Below, piece by piece: positions 1 through 64,000 of a stretch of 64,000 nucleotides of DNA. The notes beneath the pieces were generated by a model. It was given only the letters and a program-made list of their open reading frames with translations, did not search any database and had not been told where the DNA came from. Where the stretch lies: positions 35,001 to 99,000 of the forward strand of contig JAVVLW010001330.1 of NCBI GenBank assembly GCA_034401795.1. The letters run 5' to 3'. Both the position numbers and the translations under genes were made by a program. The DNA comes from Chaetoderma sp. LZ-2023a (taxonomy: Eukaryota > Mollusca > Caudofoveata > Chaetodermatida > Chaetodermatidae). Positions within the stretch are counted from its first letter, which is position 1; each line of letters opens with the position of its first letter.

Positions 1-40
1 GTTTACTGAAAACTGTCTAGGTGTTACGTGTCTGTAGTTG

Positions 41-355
41 AATGGACCCTTCCACTTTTAGCTATGCCCCGCCCATCTCTAGCTAAGCTCCACCCACACC
101 TCGCTCGTGTTGGGATCGATCGATCTTTGAACATCCTGACTGTCAATTTCCAGAGAACTGTACAGGTAAGCTGTTGAATATTTTGCCCAGTCAAATTAGA
201 TTCAAAGTATTCAACAGCATGTTTATTAAATAGTCGAGACATTCAATTCTTACAACGTGTCAGACTATTAAGAGTATAGAATCATTTATGACGTAATGAT
301 TATGACGTCATATGACGTCAGACGATATATGGATACTCTAGAAAGGTGAATTGCA
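41..355 (+). mobile_element. MITE-1 copy (non-autonomous inverted-repeat transposon)
   Basis: The left end reads AATGGACCCTTCCACTTTTA and the right end is its degenerate reverse complement (CTAGAAAGGTGAATT). The first arm holds the GCCCCGCCC and GCTCCACCCACA blocks shared by all copies. The central hairpin (CTGTTGAATATTTT... AAAGTATTCAACAG) has lost its loop. The right arm has two TGACGTCA palindromes at 303-310 and 313-320. There is no coding capacity. Orientation + is defined here as GCCCCGCCC arm first. Confidence 0.75.
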
Positions 356-356
356 C

Positions 357-735
357 ATCATCATCATCATCATTATCATCGCTGGAGCAATGTTATTGCT
401 GAATAAACAGCATCACTGAGGTAGAAATATCTGTCCATTATGGTTTCTCAGCAGTTCAGATGCTTGTATTTCGCAGCTGTTTTATTTACCGTGTATTATG
501 TGCGTATTTATTTGTGATTAATCGCGTTCTTACGTCTTATCTGAATCCATACAGCAGTGAGATTAGAGTTGAATGAATGGTGTATTCGGAGGAAGGCGAG
601 ACTCACTGGCGCATCTTTAATGCTGATTAACCGGAAGCTTAACATATCATTCAAGCCCTTTCAAAACCTGAAAAACAGCGGCTCATTTTCAAAGCAAATC
701 ATACAGGTAAAATAAGGCTGATGTATAAACAAACT
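357..735 (+). repeat. Left member of a long direct repeat pair
   Basis: An ATC/CAT-rich start leads into a stretch beginning TATTATGTGCGTATTTATTT that recurs at about 6448-6640 with scattered substitutions. The shared part includes the blocks CAGCAGTGAGATTAGAGTTG and GGAGGAAGGCGAGACTCACT. No ORF of note lies inside. The pair could be a segmental duplication or the ends of an unrecognised element. Confidence 0.7.
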
Positions 736-1257
736 TGATTGTAGGGTTATGTTGCCTTGGACAGCAACAACCTCCTCAAGCATGGATCCAGACCCTCGCA
801 CCATTCACCTGTGGGAATGTCAGGTCAAAATTATCTCACTGATCTCAGAGATAATTACATTAGCCCCCGCCCCACCCCACCACCACCTGAATGTGTGTAC
901 ATTCATCTCTGTCGCACGAGACTCTGTAATAGGTCATGTCACAGAAAAAGTCCACTTTTACAAATAGCCGCCACAATACCGAAGTTGCAGTATTAATTCA
1001 TAAATACACGTCTTGGTGTATATCAGTGGTTTTCATTTTATTTTACAACAATTATGTGCACTTGTATCCGCACATAACGCGCACAGCAAGTGTGTTGGGA
1101 TTTATTTCGTTTCATTGCATTGGGGTACACACTTTGAGCTTCTGGGGGTATACGGGTTGGATAGTTTTGTTTCGGGCACTCTGGTGTGAGTGTGCGCCTT
1201 TAATGCGAAAACAGCAGATTGTGAATAGTTTGTGGATTAGCTGAGCGTTTTGGATTG
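736..1257. other. Unassigned spacer
   Basis: Only short overlapping open frames are seen, with no domain signal and no consistent coding bias. A C/A-rich patch lies near 870-890. I see no gene. Confidence 0.5.
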
Positions 1258-2470
1258 TTAGCTCACCTGGCCTGAAAGGCCAAGTGAGCTTACGTCGTGG
1301 CGACCGTCCGTCGCGTGTCCGTCGTCCGACGTCCGTCGTCCGTCCGTCAACTTTTCCTTTAAACGACTTCTTCTCAAGAACTACTGGACCAATTTCAACT
1401 ATATTTGGCAGGACGCAACCTTAGGGCATAGGGATCCAGGTTTGTTCAAATGAAACTGATCAGCCAATTAGGCCGGCGGCCATCTTGGATTTTGGCCGAT
1501 TTTTAGAAACGTCTTTAAAAATCTTCTCCGAAACCGCTTGAGGGATTGAAGGAAACCTCATGAATCTAGGGCAAGGGCTCAATCACATTTGTTCAAGGTA
1601 ACTTAATTGGTCCAATAGTTCGGCGGCCATCATGGTTGGCCTAGTTTTAACGAAAATAACTTCTTCTCCAGAACAGCTGAAGGGATCCGGCCGAAATTTG
1701 GCAGATATGATTAGGTACTAAGGGCCAGTAGTTTGTTCAAGAGAAGTTGATCCGTCAAAAAACATGGCCGCCGTGGACTTTTTTATTTGATGGATTTTGA
1801 GGCCGAAATTGGTTTTATATAGGTTTTTGGGTATTCTGATCTCAAATTTGTAATTTTCGAAACCGTCGGATAAACGGTTTGGCGGCCATCTTGGATCATT
1901 TTCCCGCCAAAAGCTCCCATACTAAAGCAATGGGAAATTTAAAATGTCTTCTCGAGAACTACCAGGCCGATTTCAATTATATTTGGCAGGAATCATCCTT
2001 AGGGCATAAGGATTCAAGTTGTTCAAATGAACCCGATCGGCCAACTTGCCCAGCGGCCATTTTGGATTTTGGCTAATTTCAGGAAATGTCTTTAAAAATC
2101 TTCTCCGAAACCACTTGGGGAATCTTCATCTAGGCCAAGAGGTAAGCCAAGTTTGTTCAAGAGGACTTGATTGACCAAATGGTTCGGCGACCATCTTGGA
2201 TGACCTGGTTTTCACTAAAATGACTCCTCCAGAACCGCTGAAGGGATCAAGCCGAAAATTTGGCCATTAAAATTTGATCAAGGGAAGTTGATCCATCAAA
2301 AAAACATGGGCGCCGTGGGCCAATCAAAATGTAGTGTGTTTGGCGGTCATATTGCGCTTTCAAAAATGTCCACAAATTCATTTAAAAGACTGCTAACCCA
2401 CCCACCAACAATTTTGACAAAAATTGATGGTGCTCCAGGTGAGCGACACAGGCCCCTTGGGCCTCTTGTT
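1258..2470 (+). repeat. TTAGCTCACCTGG-ended interspersed repeat, copy 1
   Basis: It starts with a small hairpin (AGCTCACCTGGCC ... GGCCAAGTGAGCT) and a CCGTCCGTCG run, and ends with CCAGGTGAGCGACACAGGCC followed by TTGGGCCTCTTG. The start and end are inverted relative to each other. The interior is a diverged tandem: blocks near 1368-1900 and 1946-2290 share TTCTTCTCAAGAACT-like, ATATTTGGCAGGA and GCGGCCATCTTGGAT motifs. There is no intact ORF. I know this repeat type as common in molluscan genomes. It is probably non-autonomous. Confidence 0.75.
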
Positions 2471-2949
2471 TTCCCTACGACACGCAAGGCTGATGGCGTT
2501 AATGATACTAATAATGTTAATAAGTATGTATAGTAATAATAATGATTATAAAAAGGTGTTGCCTGTTCATAACTTGATGACGAAAATTTGTATATCGCCC
2601 CTTAGTCTGGGTGTAATACATTTATCAGTATCAGTATCAGTTTAGGTTTAGACTCTTTTGAGTGCCTAATATAATGATGTAATATGTAACACTTGTCCTT
2701 GGGAGCGAATATGTTCATAGTTAGATGTGCTGAAGCATACTACATTAAAATCGTTCCACGCAAATTTCGTCCAAGTGAGACATTGCGTTTAAAGAAGTTC
2801 TGGAAAATTTAAAGAAAATCCAAGATAGTAACTTGAAAAATTGCCCTATCCAAGTTCTGAATAGCCGTTTCTACCATAGTAGGATCCTTTCAGCCAAATT
2901 TGGTTAAAATTATCAACCAGGAGAAGAAATTATTGGTTTGATTGGCGTA
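2471..2949. other. Unassigned spacer
   Basis: Mostly AT-rich, with a short ATCAGT run at about 2624-2642. From about 2770 onward, phrases such as CAAATTTGGTTAAAATT resemble the interior of the TTAGCTCACC repeat, so part may be a decayed fragment of it. No gene is seen. Confidence 0.4.
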
Positions 2950-3190
2950 TATCGAGTCTCTGAATCCCGGTCCCATTCATGCCATATCTAGGCTGGTTTT
3001 ATTTCAATCTTTTATTGGTAACTTCCCCAACTTTTACACTGGTACTCATTTATATGCCTTTGTGAAGAGAGGCTAGGAGCGAAGGAGATTGCCCATGTTT
3101 CCAACGATGGTGATGGTGTGCATGGCTCAAGCTCGAACCGGGTTCTCCGCTTAAGTAGTTCTGCGTGTGAGCCACTACACCAGGCAGTTT
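2950..3190 (-). mobile_element. tRNA-derived SINE
   Basis: Read on the minus strand from 3187, the head GCCTGGTGTAGTGGCTCACA matches a tRNA A box (consensus TRGYNNAGTGG). About 35 bases later, AACCCGGTTCGAGC matches the B box (GGTTCGANNCC). This internal RNA polymerase III promoter is followed by a body unrelated to tRNA, including CAATAAAAGATTGAAATAAA. The upstream cloverleaf is too degenerate for a working tRNA. The downstream boundary is approximate. Confidence 0.65.
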
Positions 3191-3579
3191 ATGAGGAGAT
3201 ATGTCTACATTTTAAAGGATTTCCAGACGTTTTTCAAAGAATCCAAGATGAGCTTAAATGGTAACAAAAACATTGTCCAATAAATATTCTCATTAGAAGT
3301 GTTGAGGTCTAGTATTGTATGATCATTCCACCAACGTTCCCTTGAAATTGGGCCATTGATTAAGGAGGGGTAGCATTTACAATGCTTTCTGGAACATGTT
3401 GGAAAATCCATGATAGCCACTAAAAATCGAATGATCAAAATTCTGCATAGAAGTCCTAGAGCCTACTGCCGTAAGATCCTTGCAAACTTTATGAAGATCC
3501 AGCCAGCGGTTTTAAAAGAAGATACATATTAAAGGATTTCTGAAAATGTTTGAGATTTCCAAGATGGCCGCCGAGACGC
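3191..3579. repeat. Decayed fragment resembling the TTAGCTCACC repeat interior
   Basis: Short phrases such as GATTTCCAAGATGGCCGCC and ATCCAAGATGAGCTTAAATG match the recurrent phrase set of the 1258-2470 repeat in either orientation. No terminal hairpin is present and the boundaries are uncertain. Confidence 0.4.
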
Positions 3580-5930
3580 CTACTTCATAGACACACATTT
3601 ATCACATGCTGCCAAAGTGTCATCTCAGTTCATAAACAGACACTTATCATGTGCTGTCAGAGTGTCATCTCACTTCACAGACACACACTTATAACATGCT
3701 GTCAGGGTGTCATCTCACTTCACAGACACATACTTATCAGGTGCTGTCAGAGTGGCATCTCAGTTCATAGACACACACCTATAACATGCTGCCAAAGTGT
3801 CATCTCAGTTCATAGACAGACACTTATCATGTGCTGTCAGAGTGTCATCCCAGTTCGTAGACAGACACTTATCATGTGCTGTCAGAGTGTCATCTCACTA
3901 CACAGACACACACTTATAACATACTGTCAGAGTGTCATCTCACTTCACAGACACACATTTATAACATGCTGTCAGAGTGTCATCTCACTTCATAGACACA
4001 CACTTATCAGGTGCTGTCAGAGTGGCATCTCAGTTCATAGACACACACCTATAACATGCTGCCAAAGTGTCATCTCAGTTCATAGACAGACACTTATCAT
4101 GTGCTGTCAGAGTGTCATCCCAGTTCGTAGACAGACACTTATCATGTGCTGTCAGAGTGTCATCTCACTACACAGACACACACTTATAACATACTGTCAG
4201 AGTGTCATCTCACTTCACAGACACACATTTATAACATGCTGTCAGAGTGTCATCTCACTTCATAGACACACACTTATCAGGTACTGTCAGAGTGTCATCT
4301 TACTTCACAGACACACACTTATCACGTGCTGTCAGAGTGTCATCTCACTTCATAGACACACACTTATCATGTACTGTCAGAGTGTCATCTCAGTTCATAG
4401 ACAGACACTCATCATGTGCTGTCAGAGTGTCATCTCACTTCATAGACACACACTTATTACATGCTGTCAGAGTGTCTTCTCACTGCATAGACACACACTT
4501 ATCATGTGCTGTCAGAGTGTCATCTCACTTCACAGACACACACTTATAACATGCTGTCAGGGTGTCATCTCACTTCACAGACACATACTTATCAGGTGCT
4601 GTCAGAGTGGCATCTCAGTTCATAGACACACACCTATAACATGCTGCCAAAGTGTCATCTCAGTTCATAGACAGACACTTATCATGTGCTGTCAGAGTGT
4701 CATCCCAGTTCGTAGACAGACACTTATCATGTGCTGTCAGAGTGTCATCTCACTACACAGACACACACTTATAACATACTGTCAGAGTGTCATCTCACTT
4801 CACAGACACACATTTATAACATGCTGTCAGAGTGTCATCTCACTTCATAGACACACACTTATCAGGTGCTGTCAGAGTGGCATCTCAGTTCATAGACACA
4901 CACCTATAACCTGCTGCCAAAGTGTCATCTCAGTTCATAGACAGACACTTATCATGTGCTGTCAGAGTGTCATCCCAGTTCGTAGACAGACACTTATCAT
5001 GTGCTGTCAGAGTGTCATCTCACTACACAGACACACACTTATAACATACTGTCAGAGTGTCATCTCACTTCACAGACACACATTTATAACATGCTGTCAG
5101 AGTGTCATCTCACTTCATAGACACACACTTATCAGGTGCTGTCAGAGTGTCATCTTACTTCACAGACACACACTTATCACGTGCTGTCAGAGTGTCATCT
5201 CACTTCATAGACACACACTTATCATGTACTGTCAGAGTGTCATCTCAGTTCATAGACAGACACTCATCATGTGCTGTCAGAGTGTCATCTCACTTCATAG
5301 ACACACACTTATCACATGCTGTCAGAGTGTCTTCTCACTGCATAGACACACACTTATCATGTGCTGTCAGAGTGTCATCTCACTTCACAGACACACACTT
5401 ATAACATGCTGTCAGAGTGTCATCTCACTTCATAGACACACACTTATCAGGTGCTGTCAGAGTGTCATCTCACTTCACAGACACACATTTATCACGTGCT
5501 GTCAGAGTGTCATCTCACTTCACAGACACACATTTATAACATGCTGTCAGAGTGTCGTCTACCTTCATTGACACACACTTATCGCATGCTGTCAGAGTGT
5601 CCTCTCACTTCATAGATACACATACTTATCACGTGCTGTCAGAGTGTCATCTCAATTCATAGACACACACTTATCACATGCTGTCAGAGTGTCGTCTCAC
5701 TTCATAGACACACACTTATCACATGCTGTCAGAGTGTCATCTCACTTCATAGACACACACTTATTACATGCTGTCAGAGTGTCATCTCCCTTCATAGACA
5801 CACACTTATCACGTGCTGTCAGAGTGTCATCTCACTTCATAGACACACACTTATCACGTGCTGTCAGAGTGTCATCTCACTTCATAGACACACACTTATC
5901 ACGTGCTCTTAGAGTGCCACTTCATAGGCA
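3580..5930 (+). repeat. 45-bp satellite array with higher-order repeats
   Basis: About 52 tandem 45-bp units with the theme CTGTCAGAGTGTCATCTCAC then TTCATAGACACACACTTATC. The marker AGTGGCATCT recurs at 3751, 4021, 4606 and 4876. Thus a 270-bp (6-unit) block is duplicated, and that duplication is itself repeated 855 bp (19 units) away. Because 45 is a multiple of three and two frames lack stops, a 673-codon open frame runs through it. That frame has no ATG start and encodes only a monotonous 15-residue Cys/His/Ser repeat, so I treat it as non-coding satellite. Confidence 0.9.
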
Positions 5931-6014
5931 TATACGTATGCGTGTTGTCGCAGCGGCAACATGTCGCCAATTCTTTCCACGAAATCATATAGAGAAATAG
6001 AACCTATAAATCTT

Positions 6015-6029
6015 CAACAACAACAACAA

Positions 6030-6112
<83 letters not shown>

Positions 6113-6126
6113 GCAGCAGCAGCAGC

Positions 6127-6158
<32 letters not shown>
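6015..6158 (+). repeat. Layered trinucleotide tract CAA-CAG-CGG-CAG-CAA
   Basis: In order, approximately: 6 CAA, 15 CAG, 10 CGG (6078-6107), 6 CAG and 11 CAA. The G+C-richest, CpG-containing unit is at the centre and the poorest units are at both edges. Frames through it give polyglutamine, polyarginine, polyalanine and polycysteine on the two strands, but no flanking coding sequence supports translation. Confidence 0.95.
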
Positions 6159-6159
<1 letters not shown>

Positions 6160-6179
6160 CATCGTGGGCAGGCGCAGAG

Positions 6180-33374: not shown

Positions 33375-34320
33375 ATGCCATGTAGCAGGGGCTGTTACTA
33401 AGGCGGTTACCAAGGCTATTACGCATGCCTATTTCAAGGGCGGTTACCAGGGCTGTTATGCATGTCTATTACCAGCTTGTTTACCAGGACTGTTACGCAC
33501 ACCTATTACCAGGGCGGTTACCGGGTCTGTTGCGGTTACCGGGGCTGTTGCGCATGCCTATTACTAGGGCAGTTACCAGGACTGTTACGCATGCCTATTA
33601 CCAAGGCGGTTACCAGGGCTGTTATGCATGCCTATTACCAGGGAGGTTACCAGGGATGTTATGCATGCCTATTACCAGGGAGGTTACCAGCGATGTTATG
33701 CATGCCTATTACCAGAGAGGTTACCAGGGCTGTTATGCATGCCTATTAACAGGGAGGTTACCAAGGCTGGTATGCATGCCTGTTACCAGGGCAGTTGCCA
33801 CGGCTGTGACGCATGCCTATTACCAGGGCGGTTACCAGGGCTGTTATGCATGCCTAATACCAGGGCGGTTACCAGGGCTGTTACGCATGCCTATTACCAG
33901 GTAGGTTACCAGGGCTGTGATGCATGCCTACTACCAGGGCAGTTACCAGGGCTGTTACGCATGCCTATTGCCAGGGAGGTTACCAGGGATGTTATGCATG
34001 CCTATTACCAGGGAGGTTACCAGGGCTGTTATTCATGCCTATTACCAGGTAGGTTACCAAGGCTGGTACGCATGCCTGTTACCGGGGCAGTTACCAGGGC
34101 TGTTATGCATGCCTATTACCAAGGCAGTTACCAAGGCTGTTACGCATGCCTATTACCAGGGCGGTTGCCAGGGCTGTTACGCATGCCTATTACGAGGGCA
34201 GTTACCAGGACTGTTATGCATACCTATTGCCAAGGCAGTTACCAGGACTGGTACACATGTCTATTACCAGGGCAGTTATCAGGGCTGTTACGCATGCTTA
34301 TTACCAGGGTTTTTATCGGG
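33375..34320 (+). repeat. 37-bp minisatellite (12+13+12 composite)
   Basis: About 25 units with the theme GGTTACCAGGGCTGTTATGC then ATGCCTATTACCAGGG. Consecutive ATGCCTATTACC starts at 33628 and 33665 give the 37-base period. Each unit is three related dodecamers (GGTTACCAGGGC, TGTTACGCATGCC, TATTACCAGGGC). All frames give near-periodic peptides and none looks like a real gene. Confidence 0.9.
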
Positions 34321-35090
34321 TCTGTTACGAGAACTGGTACCATGGCGGTCACAAAAGCTGTTATCAGGCCTGTTGCCAAGATTGATCTTTGATCTGTTCC
34401 TAGGGCTGTTTCCACGGCGATTACTATGAGTGTTACCACGAATGTTACTATGACTGTTACCAGGGGTGTTGTCACGACTGTAACCATGATTGTTACAAGG
34501 ACTGTTACCATGACAGTTACCAGGACTCTAACCATGGTTGCTACTAGGGATGTTACCATGGATGACTGCTACAATGACCGTTACCATGATTGTTACCACG
34601 ACTGTTATCATGACTGTTACCATAATGGTTACCATGACTGTTACGAGGGCTGTTATCGTGACTGTTACCATAATGGTTACCATGACTGTTACGAGGGCTG
34701 TTATCGTGACTATTATCAGAGCTGTTACCATGCCTGTTACCAGGGCTGTTACCGTGACTGTTAACAAGACCGCTACCATGATTGTTAACATGACCGTTAG
34801 CATGACAGTTACCATGACTATTACCGGAGCTGTTACCAGGGCTGTTACCAAAAGCGTTACCATAGTTGTTACTGATCTGTTACCATGGCCGTTACCAAAG
34901 CTGTTAACAGGGCTTTTACTATGACTGTTAACAAGACTATTGCCACGACTGCTACCATGATTGTTGCTAAGGCTGTTACCATGACTCTTACAATGACTGC
35001 TACTATGACTGTTACCATGTTACTGTTACTTGGGCTGTTATCAGGGCTGTTACCAGGGATGTTATCAGGGCTGTTGTCATGGGTGATACT
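34320..35090 (+). repeat. 12-bp degenerate tandem array
   Basis: Units like TGTTACCATGAC, often with CC/AC/GA variants, follow the 37-bp array without a break and share its TGTTACCA(G/T)G core. Valine/threonine-rich or aspartate/tyrosine-rich open frames on both strands are by-products of the 12-base period. Confidence 0.85.
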
Positions 35091-41700: not shown

Positions 41701-41710
41701 TGTTTTACTA

Positions 41711-44085
41711 GTCCGGGAGCCAATTTTCAAAAGGGGTCTAGAAGAATGGTTTCGTAGCACACCCAGTATTCAGAAGGTTTGTCTCTATATTATGCTAGAC
41801 CGATGTCTTGGGTATATTCTGAGCCGTGTTGTACAAGAAAATTGTCGTATCACTAACCCGTGAGAAGCCCATTTACAATAGGTGTTGAATGTAGTTTTCA
41901 GACAATTTTCACAATGGTAATTTTTCACAAACTTAAGCGCATGTTATATCAATACAATCTTAACCAAAATGGAAAGGAGTGATCGTATATCGCAGATTTA
42001 TACATAATCAACCTCGTTTAAGACACCCGTATGTTGCTTTGTACATATTGGGGCACTTAGGTCTTCTTGTGACTAGCAATACCTTAGCCACAACAATGCC
42101 CATGTTTTCTACATTTTTCATAATTAAACTTTTAACTGACATGCAGTGCATGTCTACACAAGCTGGCAGGACATATTTATCACGTGAGCAAATGAGAGAA
42201 TGTTACTCATCCGTGTCAGAGTCATCTTCGACAATTGTATGCTGAACATTGTCACACATTTCACCTCCCATACAAAGGCATGCTTCAGTGCAGAGTAGAT
42301 TGTTAGCCTTGCATTGACAGAGATCTGTTCTTTTGCAGGCAGACTTTTGACATCTACATGATGTGAGTTCAATTAATCCAAATGGAGCAGGATCCTTTGA
42401 CATTAGAACAGGCTTGAGTAGACCATCCACTATACTCCAGCCATGCCCATTTGGAGATGGAAGATTCTGAACAGCTTGCAATGAACGTCTCCAAACAAGA
42501 GCTTGAAAATTGGCCCTTTCGGTGTGATGCTTTAGACTATTCGATGTAGGTGGAAGATTTTCATTTCTTTGTCTCGTTTGACAAAAGAGCCAATAACGGG
42601 TTTCATCAGCTGTCTTTCCCACATCCCTGGTGGTATACAACTCACAGACAAATTTCTCACATAGAGTTGCAGTATTCGGTGATAAGTCAACATGTTCGCC
42701 GAGTTGGGCTAAGCTAAGCTGATGACATTCAGATGACTTTAAGAGATTGAATGATTTTCTCTTAGCGACTCCAAATAATGCACTAGTGCTATCACAACCT
42801 GTAAGAGAATGAAACCCAGGCAAAGACAGACAGATAGCTGGGCCCAGTACTTGAGCAACTGTATGTATTGGTATGTATCGCAATTTGTCCTTTGTGCCCG
42901 TACAGAACCATAGTTCAGAACAGTGAAGCGAATGATACGTATATATACTAAGTACTGCCACGTCTGTATCAGGAGACTGTATAACAACACGCATGTGGTC
43001 TTTTGAAGCGTGTAGCGCGTGCAACATCATACACGTATCTGCTTCCTCGTGATCTGATCGAAGTTCTTCCAAATACGACGAATTGTTCGCTGAAATAACA
43101 ACAACATCCATTCCATCGTTAAAGCCACCAGCAAGAATGACGCAATTGTCGGCAGATAGCATATTTGGACCAGTATCACGCCACCGCTTGCTGAGAAATG
43201 CAACCAGGTTACTTTTGTTGCTTGGATTGCTGATGTACTTGGCCCATTGCTTTGGAACGGGAGTATTTTCTCCAGCAATCTTTACTTCCAATGCTGTTGA
43301 TGACCCACGTTTTAGCAGCGCTTCCGCTTTGAGAGATCATATCATATCTGTCAAAAACTATATCTACTCTGTTGCAGTCTTCTTGATTCAGTGGAACTGT
43401 AAAGATGTGCCAGTATTTATCAGCCAATTCTCCAAATGTAGACGTACCTCCAGTTTTAACCATTTGGACAATTGCCATGCCATCTACTACATAAGCTGTT
43501 GCGCCTGTCTTGTCAACAGGTGGAAGCCGTCCATCAACATTTACTTCCTTTTCTAGTTCACTTAACAAAACACTTTTCACATTCTTTCTTAGAGTCATAT
43601 CCGTATGTGACAATGATAGTGGAACAGCAGATAGTTCATACGTCATCACTAGTTTTAAATCAACATCTCTGGACCTTGCGGCAATAATTAATCGACCAAA
43701 TAGTTCGCGGTCAGATCTCACATTGTGAATTTTGTTATCATTTGTTTTGAGTTTTTTCTTCCTCGCCTTTGGTATATGCATGCAAAATGTATGTTGGATA
43801 TATGTTAGGTCGATATCCGTCTAAATATCATATATGGTGAATCTAATACGATATTACTTTGAGTTATGATACGATCATGCTTATATCGTTGTGCACTGTG
43901 GATACAGCCAAAGCCTAGACCCCCTATGCAAAGAAATCAGGATAACTAATTAGTGCTACCACAATTTGTTTGTACAACAGGGCTTAAAATGTGTGGGGCA
44001 TGTCCCCCAAGCCACAGCAAGTGTCAGACCTTCCGAATACTGGGTGTGCTACGTCACGATTCTGACCTAGCTTTAGCTCCTGGAC
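41711..44085 (-). mobile_element. FEN-nuclease mobile element, copy A (internally deleted)
   Basis: Homology with copy B starts at TCCGGGAGCCAATTTTC and stops at GCTCCTGGAC, with unrelated flanks on both sides, as expected of insertion and not segmental duplication. The end sequences GTCCGGGAGCCAA and (right end, reverse complement) GTCCAGGAGCTAA match at 11 of 13 positions. TA flanks both ends (41709-41710 and 44086-44087). Relative to copy B, 1225 bases (B 58824-60048) are missing, removing the YARW domain and the start of the nuclease protein. The minus strand is the coding strand. Confidence 0.8.
42203..43781 (-). pseudogene. Nuclease-CXC protein pseudogene of copy A
   Basis: Residues correspond to about 57-574 of the copy B protein at over 95 percent identity by eye. 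A 5-base deletion near 43336 shifts the frame just after the second nuclease acidic motif (VDIVFDRYD), so the product would be cut before the HEEADT, PDTDV and GCDST motifs. The downstream part stays open (42203-43291) and retains those motifs and the CXC domain, with one Arg-to-Cys change next to the acidic cluster (EEADTC versus EEADTR). The 5' part is lost in the 1.2 kb deletion. Not functional as it stands. Confidence 0.8.
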
Positions 44086-44539
44086 TATACAACCTAAAAT
44101 TAAACGAATGTCGCCAACCGAATTATTTTATCATTCTTGGATCCCTTCTCTAGTATAAGCCGGTTTGCCTTGTCGATGGTAAAGGTGACAGCTTTAGCTC
44201 CCTATGCTGATAAGGAGTGTAACAAAGTCTTGTTGCTCCAATATATGAGTGGGTAGTTCGAGTTGACTATAGGGATCTAGGAGTATACTGCAGACTTTTT
44301 ATCGCGCGGTGTATTGTACTGGCGATATAGATGATTGGTGTAGCCTCTATGCCAGATCTTCGTCTTCATTGGTGGCATTGTAAGTTTTGATACGTAAAAT
44401 GGATCTACTTCAAAGCGGTACCCATCTCATCGCGCATATAGTTTATATTATCCCCATCCTGGGGAGAAAGATGACACCTCCACGACGGTCTCCTCCATAA
44501 GTACCATGCGGGCTGACATTCACATACAGAGGCAACTCT
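44086..44539. other. Unassigned spacer
   Basis: Between copy A and the retrotransposon remnant. No feature is recognised, although its latter part may be the 5' leader of the retrotransposon. Confidence 0.35.
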
Positions 44540-46812
44540 GATTATGTCTAACCTTCTTCAAACAAGAAACTGTGTTCGACATCCTCGGACGACACAATCT
44601 TCCCAGAAGCTTACCATAGCTACGTAGAATGTGTGTGGTCTGACTGCAACATCAAAAAGGCAAACCTAAGGTGCAGACTGTGAACACTATAACATCGATA
44701 TTCTCATTCAAGAAACTAAAGTAGCTAAACACTCAGAGCACCAACCTCAGACAGATCATAGGCTAGTACTCATGGAGAAAAAACAGGCCACATACCGGGA
44801 CTTAGGCTTTGTAATCGGGCCAAGGGCCTTGGGCCATGTCATTAGTTTTGGATACGTCAGTGATCAACCAGGCTATACCAACGCGAAAACGTACCACCAC
44901 TAAGTGTCGCATAGTCAACGCATATGGCCCAACTACTGGAAAAGTGATAGGGAATCCAGAAATATTAGGTTCCTTCTATGCAGAACTGAGCTCCGCCATT
45001 ACAATCCCAGCTAGATGGCAACTGCTCTTGTGTAGAGATTTCAACTCCAAGCTGGGTAAACTCGGCATTACGGACACTAATTCTGGACTTGGCTTATGCA
45101 TGGGATCGTATTGAGAGGGCACATGAAACTGCAACGGAGATGCACTGGTGGAATCCTTTAGTTCCAATGGCCTATTTGCCACAAATACGGCTTTCAAACA
45201 CCGATGCCGTCGCCGGACAACATGGACTGGACACATTGCAGATCACAAAGCCCCAAAATGTTCTAAAGCTACAACAGCTGTCTTTAACCAAATAGACTTC
45301 ATACTATGCAAGCCAGAAGCAAAAGAACCTACTTCGGGATGCTCGTTCCTATGGAGACACAGGCCTCAATTCTGAGCATAAGCCAGTCATTACACGCCCT
45401 CGGAACAACCCTCTTTACCTAATGTACAAACACCATACCAGACACCTACAATCTACCCAAGCGCATCAGCGACACTGACACTCAAATGCCATACAAGAAG
45501 GCCCTCGGGGAGCAGATAGCTAACATCTATGCCAGCTATCCAAAATACTGAAATCTATGGAATCATCAGCGACCAGCATCATAGGTGTTCTAAAAAAGTA
45601 ACTAAACCAGATATACTGACGACCCCCTAGTAATAAAACTGTCAGCAGAGCAGAAAGCATTATGGCTGCGCATCTATCAAAGTAGCCAAAGCGAAGACCG
45701 CACAAAACCACGTCGGGAACGCAATAACATTCTGCGACACATTAGCGAATGCTTAAAAGATCTTGCTATTCAACAAGCAGACTTCCTAGCAGATGAAATC
45801 ACTGCCACGGATGACTGTTACACGATGTTTCGGGCAGTCCGAGCCCTGCAAGTTACTAACTACACACCACAACTCACTATACACAACTCTGAAGGACACG
45901 TTATCGGGACTGACCAGGGCAAAGCCAAGGTGATTCGAGAATGGTTCAAGGAACAGTTCACTGACCACGATGTTGAGCCCTTGCACACTTTCTCGGGAGA
46001 CCCCAGGCCATTCCTAGGACCAATTAAAATAACAGAAGTTGAGAAGGCACTTAAAGCCCTGAAACATGGACGTGCATCTGGACATGATGGCATGACCAAT
46101 GACCTATTCAAATATACAAGTAACATTATCTCAAAACCGATCACGCACCTAATCAATTCAGCTTTTATGCACCACCCTCCCATCGACGCTGTAGGCCAAG
46201 GCACCCGTATCGCGCTACCCAAGCCCAAGATGCCACCTGGCCCCCAGCCAATCTGCAGCCCATTGTGCTCCTCAACAGCATCCTAAAAATCATATCCAAT
46301 GTAACTCTATGCCGCATCCGAGAAAAGATCGATGACGTCACCGGATCATGTCAATGTGGCTTCAAACGTGGACGCTGCTGCGCAGACACTGTATGGGCTC
46401 AACGCATGCGTGTGTCGCTGGTCATGTCCAAACACTGGGATTTCCACAAAATTGGTATTGACATGTCATGAGCATCCGACACAATTAAACACTTAAAGAT
46501 CCTAGATGTACTACGCCAGGCCAGTTGCAATGAAGATGAGCTACGACTAGTGAGGCTACTGCTTGCAGACACCAAGTTGAGAGTACGCGTCAAGTCAGTG
46601 AAGTCTATAGAGTTTGAGACATCAATCGGCTCCCCACCGGGAGATGGTCTATCCCCTGTACTTTTCACCTGTTAACTTAATGCTGCATTGAAATCCGTGC
46701 GGGAAAATTCCACAAGACCAAACCACCAGTGTCAATACTGGGTATGCCACTAGAGCTGGAATATGCCGACGATGTGGACTTCATAGACGAGGAAAAGAAA
46801 CCCCATGACTAA
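44540..46812 (+). pseudogene. Decayed non-LTR (LINE) retrotransposon: endonuclease and reverse transcriptase remnant
   Basis: In several frames, reading order is preserved. First comes an apurinic-type endonuclease: TIAT-stop-NVCGLT near 44612, DILIQETKVAKHSE near 44695, VNAYGPTTGKV near 44913, CRDFNSKLGKLG near 45037, NGLFATNTAFKHR near 45163 and QIDFILCK near 45292. Then comes reverse transcriptase: EVEKALKALKHGRASGHDGM near 46037, LLNSILKIISNVTLCRIREK near 46266, CGFKRGRCCADTVWAQRM near 46357, SIGSPPGDGLSPVLF near 46624 and the catalytic block LEYADDVDFIDEE near 46758. Stops and frameshifts are numerous. The 3' end is missing and meets a MITE-1 copy at about 46813. The clade is not resolved. 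Confidence 0.85.
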
Positions 46813-56070: not shown

Positions 56071-56378
56071 TCCAGTTCATTCATCAACCATATGACGTCA
56101 TAATCAACTACGTGACGTGGACGATGACGTCATAATCAATTATATCATGAATGCCGTATATAAGTTCGTCATGAACGCTAATGGAATGTCTTTCCTATTT
56201 AATAAACAGGCAGTAACAGCACAAAGTCAAATCAGTTCCAAATATTCAACAGCTTAGCTGAATAGTTTTCTGGAAATTGAGATTCAGAGAGTGCAGGGAT
56301 AAGCAAGGGTGGAGCTTAGCTAGAGATAGGAGTGTCATAGCTAAAACTGGAGTCCTCCATTCAGCCGGAAGAGGTTGT
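56071..56378 (-). mobile_element. MITE-1 copy, core mostly deleted
   Basis: GATTCCAGTTCATTCATCAA to AAAACTGGAGTCCTCCATTC. TGACGTCA lies at about 56093 and 56125. Only CAGTAACAGCACAAAGTCAA and ATATTCAACAGCTTAGCTG remain of the hairpin. Confidence 0.85.
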
Positions 56379-56766
56379 GTTTGCGCACGTCACAATGATA
56401 TAGATGGATAAGGAAGCTTAACCGTTTGATTCCGGACGCTCGAGGCTGCTGCTCATACCTGCAAAAATAGCGTTCAACTGAATTAGTTTCGACACATTTG
56501 CCATAATTTTTTTACGGTCTATTTTATTTGTGACGTTTTTTTCGTTAAGGCTGCCTGTGTCGTAAGTATAATACGCCCGCGCTTGTTCTTACATTGGAAT
56601 TGTTAAAGCAAGGCGAGCTGTGAAAGTGTATGATTATTGTAAATATGGTATGTCACATCTGTCATATTTGAAACACCTACTAATGTAAGGCCAAGTATGC
56701 GTCTACGCGCCAAATGTAGGCTATGTGTGTCCCGGTGTGCGTTCGTCTGTAGTACAGCGGCTAATA
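56379..56766. other. Unassigned left flank of copy B
   Basis: Unique sequence with no similarity to the left flank of copy A, ending ...CTAATA at the element boundary. Confidence 0.5.
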
Positions 56767-57259
56767 ATCCGGGAGCCAATTTTCAAAAGGGGTCTAGAAG
56801 AATGGTTTCGTAGCACACCCAGTATTCAGAAGGTTTGTCTCTATATTATGCTAGACCGATGTCTTGGGTATATTCTGAGCCGTGTTGTACAAGAAAATTG
56901 TGGTATCACTAACCCGTGAGAAGCCCATTTACAATAGGTGTTGAATGTAGCTCTCAAACAATTTTCGCAATGGTAAATTTTTCACAAACTTAAGCGCATG
57001 TTATATCAATACAATCTTAACCAAAATGGAAAGGAGTGATCGTATATCGCAGATTTATACATAATCAACCTCGTTTAAGACACCCGTATGTTGCTTTGTA
57101 CATATTGGGGCACTTAGGTCTTCTTGTGACTAGCAATACCTTAGCTACAACAATGCCCATGTTTTCTACATTTTTCATAATTAAACTTTTAACTGACATG
57201 CAGTGCATGTCTACACAAGCTGGCAGGACATATTTATCACGTGAGCAAATGAGAGAATG

Positions 57260-59014
57260 TTACTCATCCGTGTCAAAGTCATCTTCGACAATTGTATGCT
57301 GAACATTGTCACACATTTCACCTCCCATACAAAGGCATGCTTCAGTGCAGAGTAGATTGTTAGCCTTGCATTGACAGAGATCTGTTCTTTTGCAGGCAGA
57401 CTTTTGACATCTACATGATGTGGGTTCAATCAATCCAAATGGAGCAGGATCCTTTGACATTAGAACAGGCTTGAGTAGACCATCCACTATACTCCAGCCA
57501 TGTCCATTTGGAGATGGAAGATACTGAACAGCTTGCAATGAACGTCTCCAAACAAGAGCTTGAAAATTGGCCCTTTCGGTGTGATGCTTTAGACTATTCG
57601 ATGTAGGTGGAAGATTTTCATTTCTTTGTCTCTTTTGACAAAAGATCCAATAACGGGTTTCATCAGTTGTCTTTCCCACATCCCTGGTGGTATACAACTC
57701 ACAGACAAATTTCTCACATAGAATTGCAGTATTCGGTGATAAGTCAACATGTTCGCCGAGTTGGGCTAAGCTAAGCTGATGACATTCAGATGACTTTAAG
57801 AGATTGAACGCTTTTCTCTTAGCGACTCCAAATAATGCACTAGTGCTATCACAACCTGTAAGAGAATGAAACCCAGGCAAAGACAGACAGATAGCTGGGC
57901 CCAGTACTTGAGCAACTGTATGTATTGGTATGTATCGCAATTTGTCCTTTGTGCCCGTACGGAACCATAGTTCAGAACAGTGAAGCGAACGATACGTATA
58001 TATACTAAGTACTGCCACGTCTGTATCAGGAGACTGTATAACAACACGCATGTGGTCTTTTGAAGCGTGTAGCGCGTGCAACATCATACGCGTATCTGCT
58101 TCCTCGTGATCTGATCGAAGTTCTTCCAAATACGACGAATTGTTCGCTGAAATGACAACAACATCCATTCCATCGTTAAAGCCACCAGCAAGAATGACGC
58201 AATTGTCGGCAGATAGCATATTTGGACCAGTATCACGCAACCGCTTGCTGAGAAATGCAACCAGGTTACTTTTGTTGCTTGGATTGCTGATGTACTTGGC
58301 CCATTGCTTTGGAACGGGAGTATTTTCACCAGCAATCTTTACTTCCAATGCTGTTGATGACCCACGTTTTAGCCGCTTTTCCGCTTTGAGAGATTCCAGT
58401 CTATCATATCTGTCAAAAACTATATCTACTCTGTTGCAGTCTTCTTGATTCAGTGGAACTGTAAAGATGTGCCAGTATTTATCAGCCAATTCTCCAAATG
58501 TAGACGTACCTCCAGTTTTAACCATTTGCACAATTGCCATGCCATCTACTACATAAGCTGTTGCGCCTGTCTTGTCAACAGGTGGAAGCCGTCCATCAAC
58601 ATTTACTTCCTTTTCTAGTTCACTTAACAAAACACTTTTCACATTCTTTCTTAGAGTCCCATCCGTATGTGACAATGATAGTGGAACAGCAGACAGTTCA
58701 TACGTCATCACTAGTTTTAAATCAACATCTCTGGCCCTTGCGGCAATAATTAATCGACCAAATAGTTCGCGGTCAGATCTCACATTGTGAATTTTTTCAT
58801 CATTTGTTTTGAGTTTTTTCTTCTGTGCTAGGCTGGCAAATGTTTTAAGTTTTAAGTGTGGCAACGTGTCCCAAAAGCTTCTCGTGTTAGTGTCCAGCCG
58901 CTCCTGAACAAAATTGTCCATAATCTCCTTACCAATGTCACAGGCGGAAACAAGTCTCTTGGCGATTTCACTAGGCAATACCACGCCAGTTGCAATGTTT
59001 ACAAGCGGAAGACA
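57260..59014 (-). CDS. FEN1/XPG-like nuclease with C-terminal CXC (tesmin/TSO1-like) domain
   Basis: A 584-codon open block follows a TAG at 59015-59017 and begins with the linker CLPLVNIATG. Residue numbers below start at the codon at 58984. Visible order: helical linker (1-60); N-terminal nuclease part with VVDGMAIVQ (Asp147) and VDIVFDRYDRLESLKAEKR (Asp191), matching FEN1 Asp34 and the VFDGxxxxLK segment with Asp86; internal nuclease part with DHEEADTRMML (Glu295, Asp297), SPDTDV (Asp320, Asp322) and GCDSTSALFGVAKRKAFNLL (Asp379 and helix-turn-helix), matching FEN1 Glu158/160, Asp179/181 and Asp233. The Cys-rich end (about 523-560, CRCQKSACKRTDLCQCKANN and following) is a CXC-type DNA-binding module, followed by an acidic tail. 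Expected role: structure-specific DNA cleavage on element or target DNA; this is inference. Confidence 0.75.
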   Translation of the reverse strand, partial: CLPLVNIATGVVLPSEIAKRLVSACDIGKEIMDNFVQERLDTNTRSFWDTLPHLKLKTFASLAQKKKLKTNDEKIHNVRSDRELFGRLIIAARARDVDLKLVMTYELSAVPLSLSHTDGTLRKNVKSVLLSELEKEVNVDGRLPPVDKTGATAYVVDGMAIVQMVKTGGTSTFGELADKYWHIFTVPLNQEDCNRVDIVFDRYDRLESLKAEKRLKRGSSTALEVKIAGENTPVPKQWAKYISNPSNKSNLVAFLSKRLRDTGPNMLSADNCVILAGGFNDGMDVVVISANNSSYLEELRSDHEEADTRMMLHALHASKDHMRVVIQSPDTDVAVLSIYTYRSLHCSELWFRTGTKDKLRYIPIHTVAQVLGPAICLSLPGFHSLTGCDSTSALFGVAKRKAFNLLKSSECHQLSLAQLGEHVDLSPNTAILCEKFVCELYTTRDVGKTTDETRYWIFCQKRQRNENLPPTSNSLKHHTERANFQALVWRRSLQAVQYLPSPNGHGWSIVDGLLKPVLMSKDPAPFGLIEPTSCRCQKSACKRTDLCQCKANNLLCTEACLCMGGEMCDNVQHTIVEDDFDTDE

Positions 59015-59953
59015 CTAGCTGTCGTCGTTTTCCGCAATATTAAAGGGATTGGTCATTATATCTGATGAGAACATCGAAAGTATCTTCTGCACATTGGTTT
59101 CATCCCTGTTCATTCGATTAGTCCCCATTTCCTTATGTACTCCAAACATGTGACTATCTTGTAACCCACACATTTGCTTTGTGACCGTTGTTATGGCTGC
59201 CCTCTCGTGGCTAGTTAAAAACCACCTCTCCAGAGCTCCTGGCTTTTCTGTTATTCCAATAATACCACCTCGCTTTTTGGAATCCAAATTAATCGATTGC
59301 TCTAAGGCCATATCTGTCCACACTTGATTGAATGGATGGTCTGAGCGACTTACGGAGTGATTTCCATTCAAGAATTGTTCATGTACATGGGGATGTGTAC
59401 TTGGAAGCATCTTCATGTCCGCAAGATATATTGGGTGCCATCTTGCATAATTGGTTCTGTCCGTGCTGTGTAAATATGGCGCCATAGCAGCAGTAGCAGA
59501 TAGGTGTGCCTGCCAATCTCCAGTTCTCTCAGCTCTTATGAATCCAAGCAGCAGCTCTACCATATGAATATATGAGTTCCAAAATGGGAACAGGTGTGAT
59601 TTCGAGCTTGACTCAACTTTAAAGGATTTGAACAGCTGTTGCAATTTATTCACGTACATACACACCTCTTTGAAATTTTCTTGCAGTGCGTCTAAGTCGT
59701 CAATGCTGCTTCGGCACATCTTAATTTTCTCATCCAGACTCTCCAATTCTGTTGGAGTAATGTGGTCTTCATGTTGTCCATTTTGTTGAACCCATTTGGA
59801 AAAAGACTGCCATTGTAATCGCAGCAGCGCTTCCATAATCAATTTGTGAGCCCTCACTCCTCGATTATATGACTTCCCTTTAAGTAGAGCAGCAGCCGTG
59901 CTGCTACCATATGTGTTGGCCTCTATGTCCATCTGTCTCATTCCAACCACCAT
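59015..59953 (-). CDS. Conserved YARW-domain protein of unknown function, N-terminal partner of the nuclease
   Basis: 312 residues from an ATG at 59951-59953. The frame is probably entered from an upstream exon, because CACCCAG immediately precedes GTAATGG. Key blocks: helical LLRLQWQSFSKWVQQN; NYARWHPIYLADM; HPHVHEQFLNGNHSVSRSDH; VWTDMALEQSINLDSKKRGG; ITEKPGALERWFLTSHERAA. I have seen this combination in many unannotated invertebrate proteins, always without an assigned function. It ends NPFNIAENDDS at a TAG; the nuclease block continues in the same frame immediately after. The natural reading is one long protein interrupted by a single nonsense codon, with this half upstream. No membrane segment is seen. 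Confidence 0.7.
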   Translation of the reverse strand: MVVGMRQMDIEANTYGSSTAAALLKGKSYNRGVRAHKLIMEALLRLQWQSFSKWVQQNGQHEDHITPTELESLDEKIKMCRSSIDDLDALQENFKEVCMYVNKLQQLFKSFKVESSSKSHLFPFWNSYIHMVELLLGFIRAERTGDWQAHLSATAAMAPYLHSTDRTNYARWHPIYLADMKMLPSTHPHVHEQFLNGNHSVSRSDHPFNQVWTDMALEQSINLDSKKRGGIIGITEKPGALERWFLTSHERAAITTVTKQMCGLQDSHMFGVHKEMGTNRMNRDETNVQKILSMFSSDIMTNPFNIAENDDS

Positions 59954-60374
59954 TACCTGGGTGCTTTGTCAACAGTGGTACAGCTGGATATACAGATTCT
60001 ATGATGGAGTTAGTACACATACATAAAACATAACCTTCACGTTTCACCCTCGCCTTTGGTATATGCATGCAAAATGTATGTTGGATATATGTTAGGTCGA
60101 TATCAGTCTAAATATCATATATGGTGAATCTAATACGATATTACTTTGAGTTATGACACGATCATGCTTATATCGTTGTGCACTGTGGATACAGCCAAAG
60201 CCTAGACCCCCTATGCAAAGAAATCAGGATAACTAATTAGTGCTACCACAATTTGTTTGTACAACAGGGCTTAAAATGTGTGGGACATGTCCCCCAAGCC
60301 ACAGAAAGTGTCAGACCTTCCGAATACTGGGTGTGCTACGTCACGATTCTGACCTAGCTTTAGCTCCTGGACTA

Positions 60375-60870
60375 TAAGGACCATATATAATAGTGAAATT
60401 GTGACAAAAGTGTGAAATGTCGCACAGATGTCCACTATGATATGGAGATTCATTTAAGAGGAGATTTTCAAGATGACCGCCATGAAAAGCCATTTTCACT
60501 AATATACCGGCTTATAGATGACATAAAAACACGATCCTGGTGTCTAATCATATTTTTCTGGGTCGAAAAATCTATATTCCCCATCATTATAATCACCAGA
60601 TTATCTGGATTGGATTTCAAAACAGTAGCTGTGTAAAAGTCCCTAGCCTGCCTATTTATCGACTCATAAATAACATAGAATCGAAATATTCCTCTCTGTC
60701 TTAGAATATCTGACCTATGTAGATTCATATGTGCTAATAATTGTTTGTGTGCACATAGATGATAAGACTGGATCATTAGATCTCAGGCATCCTACGGACA
60801 CCATACATTACTTGACATACATAGTAAATATCCAGACATAGCTTGTCAGAGTGACTATAGCAAAGCGAAT
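60375..60870. other. Unassigned right flank of copy B
   Basis: Unique sequence with no homology to the right flank of copy A. A phrase pair near 60465-60560 and 60640-60700 is weakly complementary, but no element is recognised. Confidence 0.4.
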
Positions 60871-60990
60871 AATAGACCTTTCCAGTTTTAGCCATGCCCG
60901 GCCCATTTCTAGATAAGCTCCACCCACCCCACGCTGCAACAACACCCAGTCAAATTAGTTTCAAAATATTCAACAGTATCTTTATAGTCC
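60871..60990 (+). mobile_element. MITE-1 copy, large internal deletion
   Basis: ATAGACCTTTCCAGTTTTAG, GCCATGCCCGGCCCATTTCT and CTCCACCCACCCCACGC, joined directly to CACCCAGTCAAATTAGTTTC and ATATTCAACAGTATC. The CRE arm and right end are absent. Confidence 0.8.
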
Positions 60991-61382
60991 AAGAGCTACT
61001 GGGGTGTTTAATCACCCGAAAGAGGCCAAACAAACTGATGCTGTTTTTAGATAGCCCAATATATGTAGTATATGAAATGAGTACTCTTAGTTGCTGAATA
61101 TATTCCTATTTCATTTTAATTGGATGATTTCAAAGGTACCTTGATATTTGACGTACCTGGCAAAAAATTAGGGGTAGGGGAAATTCAAAGTCACATCCCT
61201 GTCTTATTTATACACACAGCCTTACCCAAGAGCCATCATATTAAAGGTAATGAAGGCCTCGTTCAACTGATACCAGGTTTTAATTCCAGAGGTTAACAAT
61301 ATTGTTCTTAACGCATCATTTTGCACCCAGTTCATGCCCATTCTTAGCTGGCTTTAAAGGTGTTCGCTCATTTTCGGATAGT
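60991..61382. other. Unassigned spacer
   Basis: No feature is identified before the decayed nuclease pseudogene. Confidence 0.4.
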
Positions 61383-62807
61383 TTAAATGCCACTGTCGGA
61401 ATCTACATCAGACCCATCAGAAGACACAATAAGCAGTTTATCAGTACCGTCCTCACCCCATTTCTCTGCGAATGTCTCTGGATCAATGACGTCACTAATG
61501 GCAGATGGAACCTGATCAAACCAGTTCACTATGAACAGAGCATCAACACAGCACCAGCCGTGTTTGCCAGGATCTAGCTCCAGAATTGACTGTTCGTATG
61601 CATGCTTCCAAATATGTTCCACATAGTTAGCTCGCTTGATCTACTGTTTAAGCACAGGTCCACAAGGCGGTAGAACACTTGCATCAGCACCTTTGATCTT
61701 TGTTGATGGTCTGTCTTGGCTTGTCGGGGCATACTTGATCCTGAAGACGGCATAACGAACATCAGCTGTTTTCTGCATATTCTGCTTCCCATAAAGTGTG
61801 CAGACATAAGCTTCTAGCATGTCCTGGTAGCGGGCCATGAGAAAAGGTGATTCCCCAAGTGCATCAAACGCACTGGGAAATTGTACAGATCGTTCCATCA
61901 GCTGTAATGGGTGTACTTCTCCTTTTCGTAGAAAAGCGGGCGTGTAATCACAGCCTGTAAAGACATGCAGAGCAGGAAGAGCACCGCATAGGTCTTTGCC
62001 AAGATGCTTCGACAGAGATGTCACATCAGTGTATCTTCTGGTGTTGTTACCATTAACACCTGCATCCATACATTTGCTTTAATATTGTATTCTCTAGATG
62101 ATACAGAAGAATGATGAACACATCTGTGTCATTGCAACGAATGACCACATTGGGCGCCCACAGCTTAGAGATGCGGGCTAGATGTAATGCTATTCTTGTA
62201 TCTGCCTCTTCGTGGTTGCAGGCTAACTCTTCATTAGTGCTGCGGACGACACCTCCATCCCGTGAAGCTGTAAACGTGTAACACACACCTTCTACTCCCA
62301 TGACTAACCTTTTCCTCTCTAACATCTTCAAATAACTGTCCTTCTGCCATTTGTCAGCAAGAAACAAGGAAAGACATCTTGAAAACAATTGACCTAAGAA
62401 GCGAGCGGAAGTCTTTTGGGCGTGTTTGGTCTGAGCCAGTTACTCTGAAGTCTGATACTGGTTTGCTCTTTCTGCTCCCTTAATTGATTTCTCTGGGTAT
62501 CTGTCGCAGATAAAATGAACAGCACCAACTTTACACAGCTTTCTAAGAATGACTTTGGCAATCCCTACAAATGTCGCTGACACATCCACCAATCCTTGGA
62601 TGTCAGAAACATCGCATCTTGGATATAAACATAGTGTCGCGGTGGTTGTGGTGTGTTACTGCTCACCCTATCCTCTAAAGCGTGCATCAGCTTTGACTTG
62701 TCTGTCTTATTCATGGTGCCGTCAAGTTGTGCAAGCGACAAAGGGACAGGAGTTAAGGGGTAGCTGAAGACCATCAACAGATTCACCTGTTTTTTCGTAG
62801 CATCCAC
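61383..62807 (-). pseudogene. Decayed FEN1-like nuclease, diverged relative of copies A and B
   Basis: Fragments in at least three frames, in order: LLMVFSYPLTPVPLSLAQLD with VYIQDAMFL (62565-62807); ICDRYPEKSIKGAERA near 62480-62520 (not in a long ORF); LACNHEEADTRIALHLARIS and VVIRCNDTDVFIILLYHL (62053-62388); LHVFTGCDYTPAFLRKGEVH (61641-62069); then a shorter tail ending in acidic SSDGSDVDSDSGI (61383-61622). The acidic nuclease positions are preserved and GCDYTPAF is even closer to cellular FEN1 than copy B is. No CXC domain is visible. Frameshifts and a stop near 62450 show that it is not functional. It lacks its N-terminal partner upstream on this strand. Confidence 0.7.
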
Positions 62808-62899
62808 TGGCCAAAACGGTTCAAACGTTTATGATTCGCCTACTACCCAGTTTGTATGCTTTTAGTACCATCTATACTTTGTCAAATTCCGAGAGATTC

Positions 62900-63999
62900 C
62901 TGTTTAGTTCCTTTTTCTCTTTTTCACAAAACAGGCATGTATTTTGAAATATCGCCTAATAACCACTTGATTAGATATACACATCAAGTGACAGTAGCCA
63001 GTATGCACATATTACACCAGCACGCGCATCAAGAGTGTCTGCTACGGGTCTCTGTTGGGGAGAATGTCCTTTCATTTTGATGAATGGAGGGATATACAGT
63101 TTGCAGAGCATCCTCAGTTCATGTATGCGACGATAACTTTGCAGTTAAAGCTAATGACGCCTCAATTTAGTATGCCAATCTGTGAGAAATCTTCATATGT
63201 ATGTTCAATGCGTGCTGCAAATCATTCCCTGGAATGTTGCGCTAAACCTCACCAACTATGTCAGGTGGCTATCAGTTCACATCAGTGATATGGTGCACCT
63301 AGCGACAACACGTCCTGAGGTTTTCAAGCAATTCGACCGAGGGCATTTGCCATACAGAAAACCCATAATGTCTTTACAGCGATGTCCATAAACCAATACC
63401 ATGAACAGATCAATGAACTCATAAAGGGTGTTGATGGTGCTGTTGGTTTGACAGAAAATCTGCATGCGCTGGAGCGATGGATGGGCAGAGATATCTAAAA
63501 TAGTGCAGGGGTTTGAAGAAATCGTAGAGCTTGAAGAGTTTGCAAACGCTGGTTGATCATAAATCAATAAAACATCATAAACCAGTCCCATCAGGACAAA
63601 AGAGTTGTGCAAAGGATGCATCATCATTAGTGTTAACAATTCAGGAAATCCATTCATTGAAGACAGTGGCGACTTGTTTACTCTAGATACCGAGACCATT
63701 ATGAGCAAGTGTGTAGTTCAAACAGTGTACCCTATTGCAGATATTGGAAAGGCGCAATATAATAGATTTGTGGAAGACCGATTAAAGAGCAACCCATCAG
63801 TGACATAGTGACCAAAACACATTACCTCTCTTTAACAAAGCCGTTGGTGCAAAAAGCAACTTTCGTCATTAAAATCAAATTGTACTCTTTTTTCCAAGAC
63901 TTTGCATTGCATCATGTAAGGCGCGACAGCAAAACCGTAATACATTCTTTCAGCATGAAAATAGAAAGTGTCCTCCATCTATTGCTGACAGGGGTCTAA
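62900..63999 (+). pseudogene. Decayed YARW-domain fragment, opposite strand, runs off the window
   Basis: In shifting frames: QFMYATITLQLKLMTPQF (near 63118), HMYVQCVLQIIPWNVALNLT plus NYVRWLSVHISDMVHLATTR and PEVFKQFDRGH (63190-63350), GVDGAVGLTENLHALERWM (near 63429-63485), then DSGDLFTLDTETIMSKCVVQ and DIGKAQYNRFVEDRLKSNPS (63662-63800). These align with NYARWHPIYLADM, HPHVHEQFLNGNH, GIIGITEKPGALERWF and, past the copy B TAG, with SACDIGKEIMDNFVQERL. That continuity supports a single ancestral protein. At least four frame disruptions are present. Confidence 0.65.
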
Positions 64000-64000
64000 A

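Follow-up and report, generated by a model that had tools for sequence, protein, structure and literature searches.

The stretch of DNA analysed here, which we call the window, comprises 64,000 nucleotides of the genome of the caudofoveate mollusc Chaetoderma sp. LZ-2023a (contig JAVVLW010001330.1, positions 35,001 to 99,000). It contains a 3610-bp mobile element with imperfect terminal inverted repeats and a 3-bp target duplication, the minus strand of which codes for part of a protein with a predicted FEN1/XPG-like nuclease. This element is very probably a non-autonomous, internally deleted copy of an Academ-type cut-and-paste DNA transposon, most likely of the AcademX lineage. Its features, and those of a second copy in the window, are the following.

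56765 to 60374, gene on the minus strand: probable Academ-type element, internally deleted copy of 3610 bp, delimited by its ends and target duplication and matching positions 1-3163 and 5720-6166 of a 6166-bp element found elsewhere in the genome
56762 to 56764, unstranded: left copy of the 3-bp target duplication TAA, from analysis of the ends and of empty-site paralogues
60375 to 60377, unstranded: right copy of the 3-bp target duplication TAA, from the same analyses
56765 to 56912, plus strand: left terminal inverted repeat, imperfect, from end comparison and self-BLAST
60237 to 60374, minus strand: right terminal inverted repeat, imperfect, from end comparison and self-BLAST
57263 to 59014, minus strand: frame of 584 codons from stop to stop that holds the FEN/XPG-like nuclease and CXC, from reading of open frames
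57848 to 58546, minus strand: putative nuclease core, D1194 to D1426 in the numbering of the full-length protein P0001, placed by motif positions (tblastn coordinates), conservation and FEN1 alignment
57305 to 57418, minus strand: CXC-like (Tesmin/TSO1) cysteine-rich segment, Pfam TCR E 0.029, below cut-off (above it in the relative L095)
59015 to 59017, minus strand: in-frame TAG stop that splits the frame; no stop occurs here in the full-length copy L029
59018 to 59968, minus strand: the same reading frame upstream of the TAG, covering some of the stretch that separates the second candidate DDE aspartate from the nuclease, with E942 in it
59927 to 59928, unstranded: internal deletion junction, at which element positions 3164-5719 (2556 bp) are gone; another locus, L009, has the same junction
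41709 to 44087, minus strand: second copy (2379 bp), internally deleted, with a broken frame and the target duplication TAC at 41706-41708 and 44088-44090

A preliminary description of this DNA, made from the letters alone, had reported an inverted-repeat element in two copies with shared ends and unrelated flanks, and this holds: the copies at 56765-60374 and 41709-44087 have common ends and different flanks, and are 98% identical where they can be aligned. The exact element ends are TA[A/G]TCCGGGAGC...GCTCCTGGACTA, with TAATCCGGGAGC...GCTCCTGGACTA in the first copy and TAGTCCGGGAGC...GCTCCTGGACTA in the second. The terminal repeats (TAGTCC...GGACTA) extend over approximately 140-150 bp, and 82 of 114 bases match over positions 35-148. 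TA is found at both ends, as had been noted earlier, but it belongs to the tip of the repeat. We could therefore rule out TA as the target duplication, which lies outside the repeat and measures 3 bp. A script was applied to 20 loci (the window counted, and with the extended locus L029 replacing L012) and parsed 19 of them, all with a 3-bp duplication and none with a 4-bp duplication. The right end of the unparsed locus (L021) has a substituted base, and inspection by eye finds ATA flanking this copy on both sides.

When the two flanks of the window element were joined with a single TAA and used as a query, 40 matches were listed. Apart from the window locus and its duplicate, each matched in two halves, they belong to a repeat family elsewhere, and many of these cross the junction. 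Six empty-site paralogues were fetched, and all of them span the site without the element, with CTAAGG in five of the six and CTATGG in one. Since these empty sites cross without the element, we can conclude that the element starts and finishes with TA and that the target duplication is TAA. The repeat family (AGTACAGCGGCTAAGGACC...) that is the source of these empty sites hosts the window copy and is found on either side of it (56749-60463). The sequences 56079-56300 and 60869-60985, which also flank the element, reappear in the fetched DNA around several other copies.

The preliminary description had suggested looking for longer copies that carry a transposase, and a longer copy with a putative transposase region was found. 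One of the 20 loci (L029, at C14) is the only one to span the whole coding sequence. This element is 6166 bp long, is flanked by the target duplication CCT and contains a single minus-strand frame of 1623 codons from stop to stop, or 1621 codons from the first ATG. Its protein, analysed as P0001 (the full-length protein minus its last residue), contains in order zinc-finger-like motifs, a putative DDE-type transposase region, the putative nuclease and CXC. The suggestion that the nuclease is the signature or sole enzyme is not supported, as the polypeptide of L029 also includes a transposase-like region, most of which is missing from the window copy. The window copy could supply the C-terminal half of the protein at most, and it has a stop. 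Frames of 1623 codons were reported for two of 75 matches to a query from the nuclease region and for five of 61 matches to an N-terminal query (one of these five with a stop inside the match); among them, L029 alone was read.

The other 19 of the 20 loci lack the start of the coding sequence, over a length of 1520 to 2208 nt. Several deletion junctions are shared: position 3163 is joined to 5720 in the window copy and L009, 3767 to 5927 in L016, L018 and L025, and 3312 to 5649 in L014 and L028. Deleted forms with the same junction occur at separate places with their own target duplications, and therefore these forms have moved as such, presumably with protein supplied in trans from full-length copies. 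Two copies found with the N-terminal query were checked downstream. In one (L101) codons 728-1262 are deleted, including two nuclease acids, and the left end aligns to position 1; the other (L102) shows no deletion within the 2.7 kb fetched.

Some copies depart from the full-length element in other ways. L014 and L017 contain about 1.65 kb without a match to it; from the frame lengths, one and the same nested insertion may be present in both, oriented in opposite ways. A 1-base deletion near codon 709 (coding position 2125) is common to L016, L018 and L020 (three of the 20 copies), and different indels lie a few bases from coding position 2125 in L022 and L025. Because of such indels, some of the shorter reported frames reflect a frameshift instead of a deletion.

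A DNA search of the 2.44-Gb source genome returned at least 47 matches, 40 of which (window included) are approximately 2.9-3.0 kb long and 98-100% identical. One of these 40 (C1252) is a duplicate of the window locus, with 99.8% identity over 10 kb, and was excluded from later counts. In the protein search with the nuclease query, 64 of the 75 matches scored contain no stop inside the match, but the 75 are the best-scoring ones, so this figure favours well-preserved copies. Twenty copies differ pairwise by 1.1% on average over 2646 nt of coding sequence. Their singleton changes (169 nonsynonymous, 10 stop, 59 synonymous) compare with a neutral expectation of 168.7, 11.4 and 57.9, which corresponds to a nonsynonymous to synonymous ratio of 0.98 of expectation for the whole stretch. 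Taken separately, codons 739-1031 have a ratio of 1.35 and codons 1032-1620 one of 0.83; for the second of these parts the few shared changes yield 0.51, but their 14 sites are not enough to carry weight. The window family has thus undergone a recent burst followed by about neutral decay, and selection that keeps the nuclease in short copies is not supported for this burst, as the singleton changes fit neutrality.

The loss of the first part of the coding sequence from 19 of 20 loci, together with the recurrence of the window form's junction at a separate locus, might be taken to mean that the nuclease-only copy is a distinct autonomous element, with the FEN-like nuclease as its transposition enzyme and no need for a DDE enzyme. 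We consider this highly improbable. The copies were selected, since they were found with a query from the nuclease region, and this choice accounts at least in part for the abundance of nuclease-bearing copies. A full-length element with one open frame exists (L029), frames of 1623 codons were reported for five of the 61 matches to the N-terminal query, the candidate acids of the transposase region are invariant in the seven families described below, L101 has a nuclease region damaged by deletion, and the substitutions among copies look neutral overall. The window copy is better read as a deletion derivative of the longer Academ-type element.

A third, decayed relative is located at the right end of the window.

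60985 to 64000, towards or past the window end, minus strand: decayed relative from the same superfamily, similar in its terminus (TAGTCCAAGAGC); pieces of it are 29-41% identical to the full protein

A piece at 63200-63793 on the plus strand, and hence in opposite orientation to this relative, is also related to the full protein (23% identical). Genome searches with the decayed element and with family C allowed us to read six further families (B, L034; C, L035; D, L095; E, L096; F, L097; G, L098) in addition to the window family (A). These seven families have a common layout, pairwise identities of 26-52% and 120 invariant columns, with 44 of 500 residues invariant in the transposase region and 34 of 310 in the nuclease region. 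The frame of family D starts late and does not include the first zinc-finger-like motif. In one copy each of families B and G, TAGTCC-type ends were read by eye, with the duplications TTA and CTA, respectively.

This comparison bears on the possibility, raised in the preliminary description, that the nuclease is a passenger or captured gene without a part in transposition. The neutral divergence of copies after insertion would agree with this idea, in that it indicates no copy-level need for the nuclease. However, in each of the seven families the nuclease and the transposase region are read in one frame, although identities between the families are low, and invariant residues are found in both regions. 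The position at which the nuclease is fused is common to all seven, which makes an incidental passenger unlikely.

The five motifs on which the earlier FEN1/XPG proposal was built (VVDGMA, IVFDRYD...SLKAEKR, EEADTR, SPDTDV and GCDST...AKRKAF) are all located in the minus-strand frame at 57260-59014, and the motif residues are invariant in the seven families. The seven candidate nuclease acids (D1194, D1238, E1342, D1344, D1367, D1369 and D1426) are invariant throughout, as are K1247, R1254 and K1436 in the same region. For comparison we used 44 usable proteins from 53 archaeal FEN1 loci, which had been fetched with a probe. The seven-family profile aligned to this set with an hhalign score of 27.7 (E 0.012), as compared to a maximum of 24.7 in 250 column shuffles, the control for this profile being column shuffles alone. 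In this alignment six of the seven FEN1 acids are paired in order (D1194 with D27, D1238 with D80, E1342 with E154, D1367 with D173, D1369 with D175, and D1426 with D236), and none of the 250 shuffles pairs three (maximum two). Three other stretches of the same proteins scored 14.9 to 18.8 against FEN1.

The region thus resembles FEN1/XPG nucleases in the order and rough spacing of the metal-ligand acids, in a lysine and an arginine that follow the second aspartate, are invariant and are similar to K93 and R100 of FEN1, and in the GxD...K segment of the helix-turn-helix. It differs from them in the greater distance that separates the second aspartate from the glutamate, in having EAD where archaeal FEN1 has EGE, and in a similarity that is too low for Pfam or PDB sequence searches. 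By motif order and the alignment controls, the proposal of a FEN1/XPG-like nuclease stands. The motif architecture provides good evidence for a putative XPG-type nuclease, short of proof of the fold.

In the transposase region, Pfam DUF6589 matches the full protein at 700-906 with E 6e-4 and 19 bits, below the cut-off of 27, and matches family B above the cut-off (31.3 bits, E 1.1e-7). Pfam assigns no function to DUF6589 (PF20231); we infer that it represents a transposase domain of the Academ-like type. The candidate DDE triad consists of D499 or D502, D682 and E942; D499, D502, D682, H711 and E942 are invariant in all seven families. E735 could be ruled out as the third acid because it is not conserved, and E942 is preferred. 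An NCBIfam search with the full protein gave no match, and Pfam found no helicase in the seven full proteins. Near the N terminus, two zinc-finger-like motifs (CxxC...HxxxC) were read by eye.

The CXC domain proposed earlier is supported as a CXC-like segment. Pfam TCR reaches 24.4 bits in L095 (family D), above the cut-off of 23.5, while the window copy (15.1 bits) and the Tesmin/TSO1 CXC match at 1570-1607 of the full protein (13.3 bits) stay below it. The CXC cysteines are present in families A, D, E, F and G and absent from B and C. Since CXC is missing from two of the seven families, it is doubtful whether guidance of the nuclease by this segment could be a general mechanism; not all families would need it.

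The X in AcademX stands for an XPG nuclease. AcademX is described with 3 or 4 bp target duplications and an encoded nuclease (Kojima 2023, PMC10045372), and AcademH, of the same superfamily, with 9-10 bp duplications and a helicase (PMC10045372). Academ is reported among the DDE/D transposons, amplified in bivalves with a mean length of 5565 bp (PMC10294476), and is listed with a 2010 Repbase report (PMC4455052). A transposon lineage with an encoded nuclease is thus in print, whereas the preliminary description had named no superfamily with a FEN-like nuclease as its signature enzyme. The element studied here resembles AcademX in its 3-bp duplications (all 19 parsed loci, families B and G by eye, and the empty sites), in its predicted nuclease (motif conservation, and FEN1 profile alignment with shuffles) and in its TAGTCC...GGACTA inverted repeats. 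A DDE-type transposase may be present as well, to judge from the invariant D499/D502, D682 and E942 and from DUF6589 matches in two of seven families, one above cut-off. At 6.2 kb the element is similar in length to bivalve Academ elements (mean 5.6 kb; PMC10294476), and its 3-bp duplication and nuclease distinguish it from AcademH (PMC10045372). The superfamily is already known, and the element is a good example of a little-studied known kind. It is probably a new AcademX family, assigned by described features instead of alignment to Academ references. In the literature available for searching, no paper contained Academ together with XPG, each taken as a whole word, and we know of no experiment on an Academ nuclease.

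Several results weigh against this assignment, which is based on descriptions of features. DUF6589 is unmatched in families C, D, E, F and G. For families C, D, E and F, neither ends nor duplications could be pinned down in the flanks, which contain inverted repeats without a clear end (D and E) or none that are usable (C and F). Of the profile searches suggested in the preliminary description, that with TCR exceeded its cut-off in L095, and those with the Pfam XPG models gave no match in the window and relative proteins. A profile search of PDB sequences gave no match to solved FEN structures, and the probability assigned by hhalign itself for FEN1 is 3.6%. A thin profile of seven nuclease rows produced a full alignment that pairs six FEN1 catalytic acids (at most two in 200 shuffles), but its score of 20.8 is not significant, since 21 out of 300 shuffles by column and 29 out of 150 by block came up to it. 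Sequence searches against PDB gave one unsupported match (E 1.1), a PHROGs search gave no supported relative, and a single-protein scan of viral contigs confirmed none.

Given that the Academ likeness is known by description and not by reference-sequence comparison, that the DUF6589 match is weak in the window family, and that we have only deduced the link from DUF6589 to Academ, the element might instead belong to a different superfamily with 3-bp duplications that merely resembles Academ and acquired its FEN-like domain independently. This is improbable, as duplication length, encoded nuclease and a length near the bivalve mean (PMC10294476) agree with AcademX. We retain the reading of the window element as a probable AcademX-type transposon.

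Viewed from the sequence, the nuclease may have a role in transposition. The DDE-type transposase region would make strand cuts and join the ends, and the nuclease in the same protein would trim or cut an intermediate, either branched or single-stranded, at the ends of the transposon or at the target with its gaps. We tentatively suggest a more specific model, possible but on balance doubtful, in which Academ proteins combine two active sites: DDE would join strands, and the FEN-like nuclease would make or trim the second-strand end cut and thereby set the 3-bp duplication, so that replacement by a helicase, as in AcademH, would go with 9-10 bp. The model fits the invariance of both sets of acids in the seven families.

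Three further features of the window were noted.

3582 to 5916: tandem array of a 45-bp unit, approximately 52 copies, mostly within an open stretch of 675 codons; it looks like a satellite and not a gene
33390 to 35075: tandem arrays with units of 37 bp and approximately 48 bp
45606 to 46286: frame of 226 codons that by eye resembles part of the reverse transcriptase open reading frame of a long interspersed nuclear element

The case of the window copy illustrates how the nuclease may appear to be the signature enzyme when only a deleted copy is read. With at least seven diverged families with long open frames and a recent burst, this genome offers good material for the question as to why a cut-and-paste transposase carries a flap-type nuclease.

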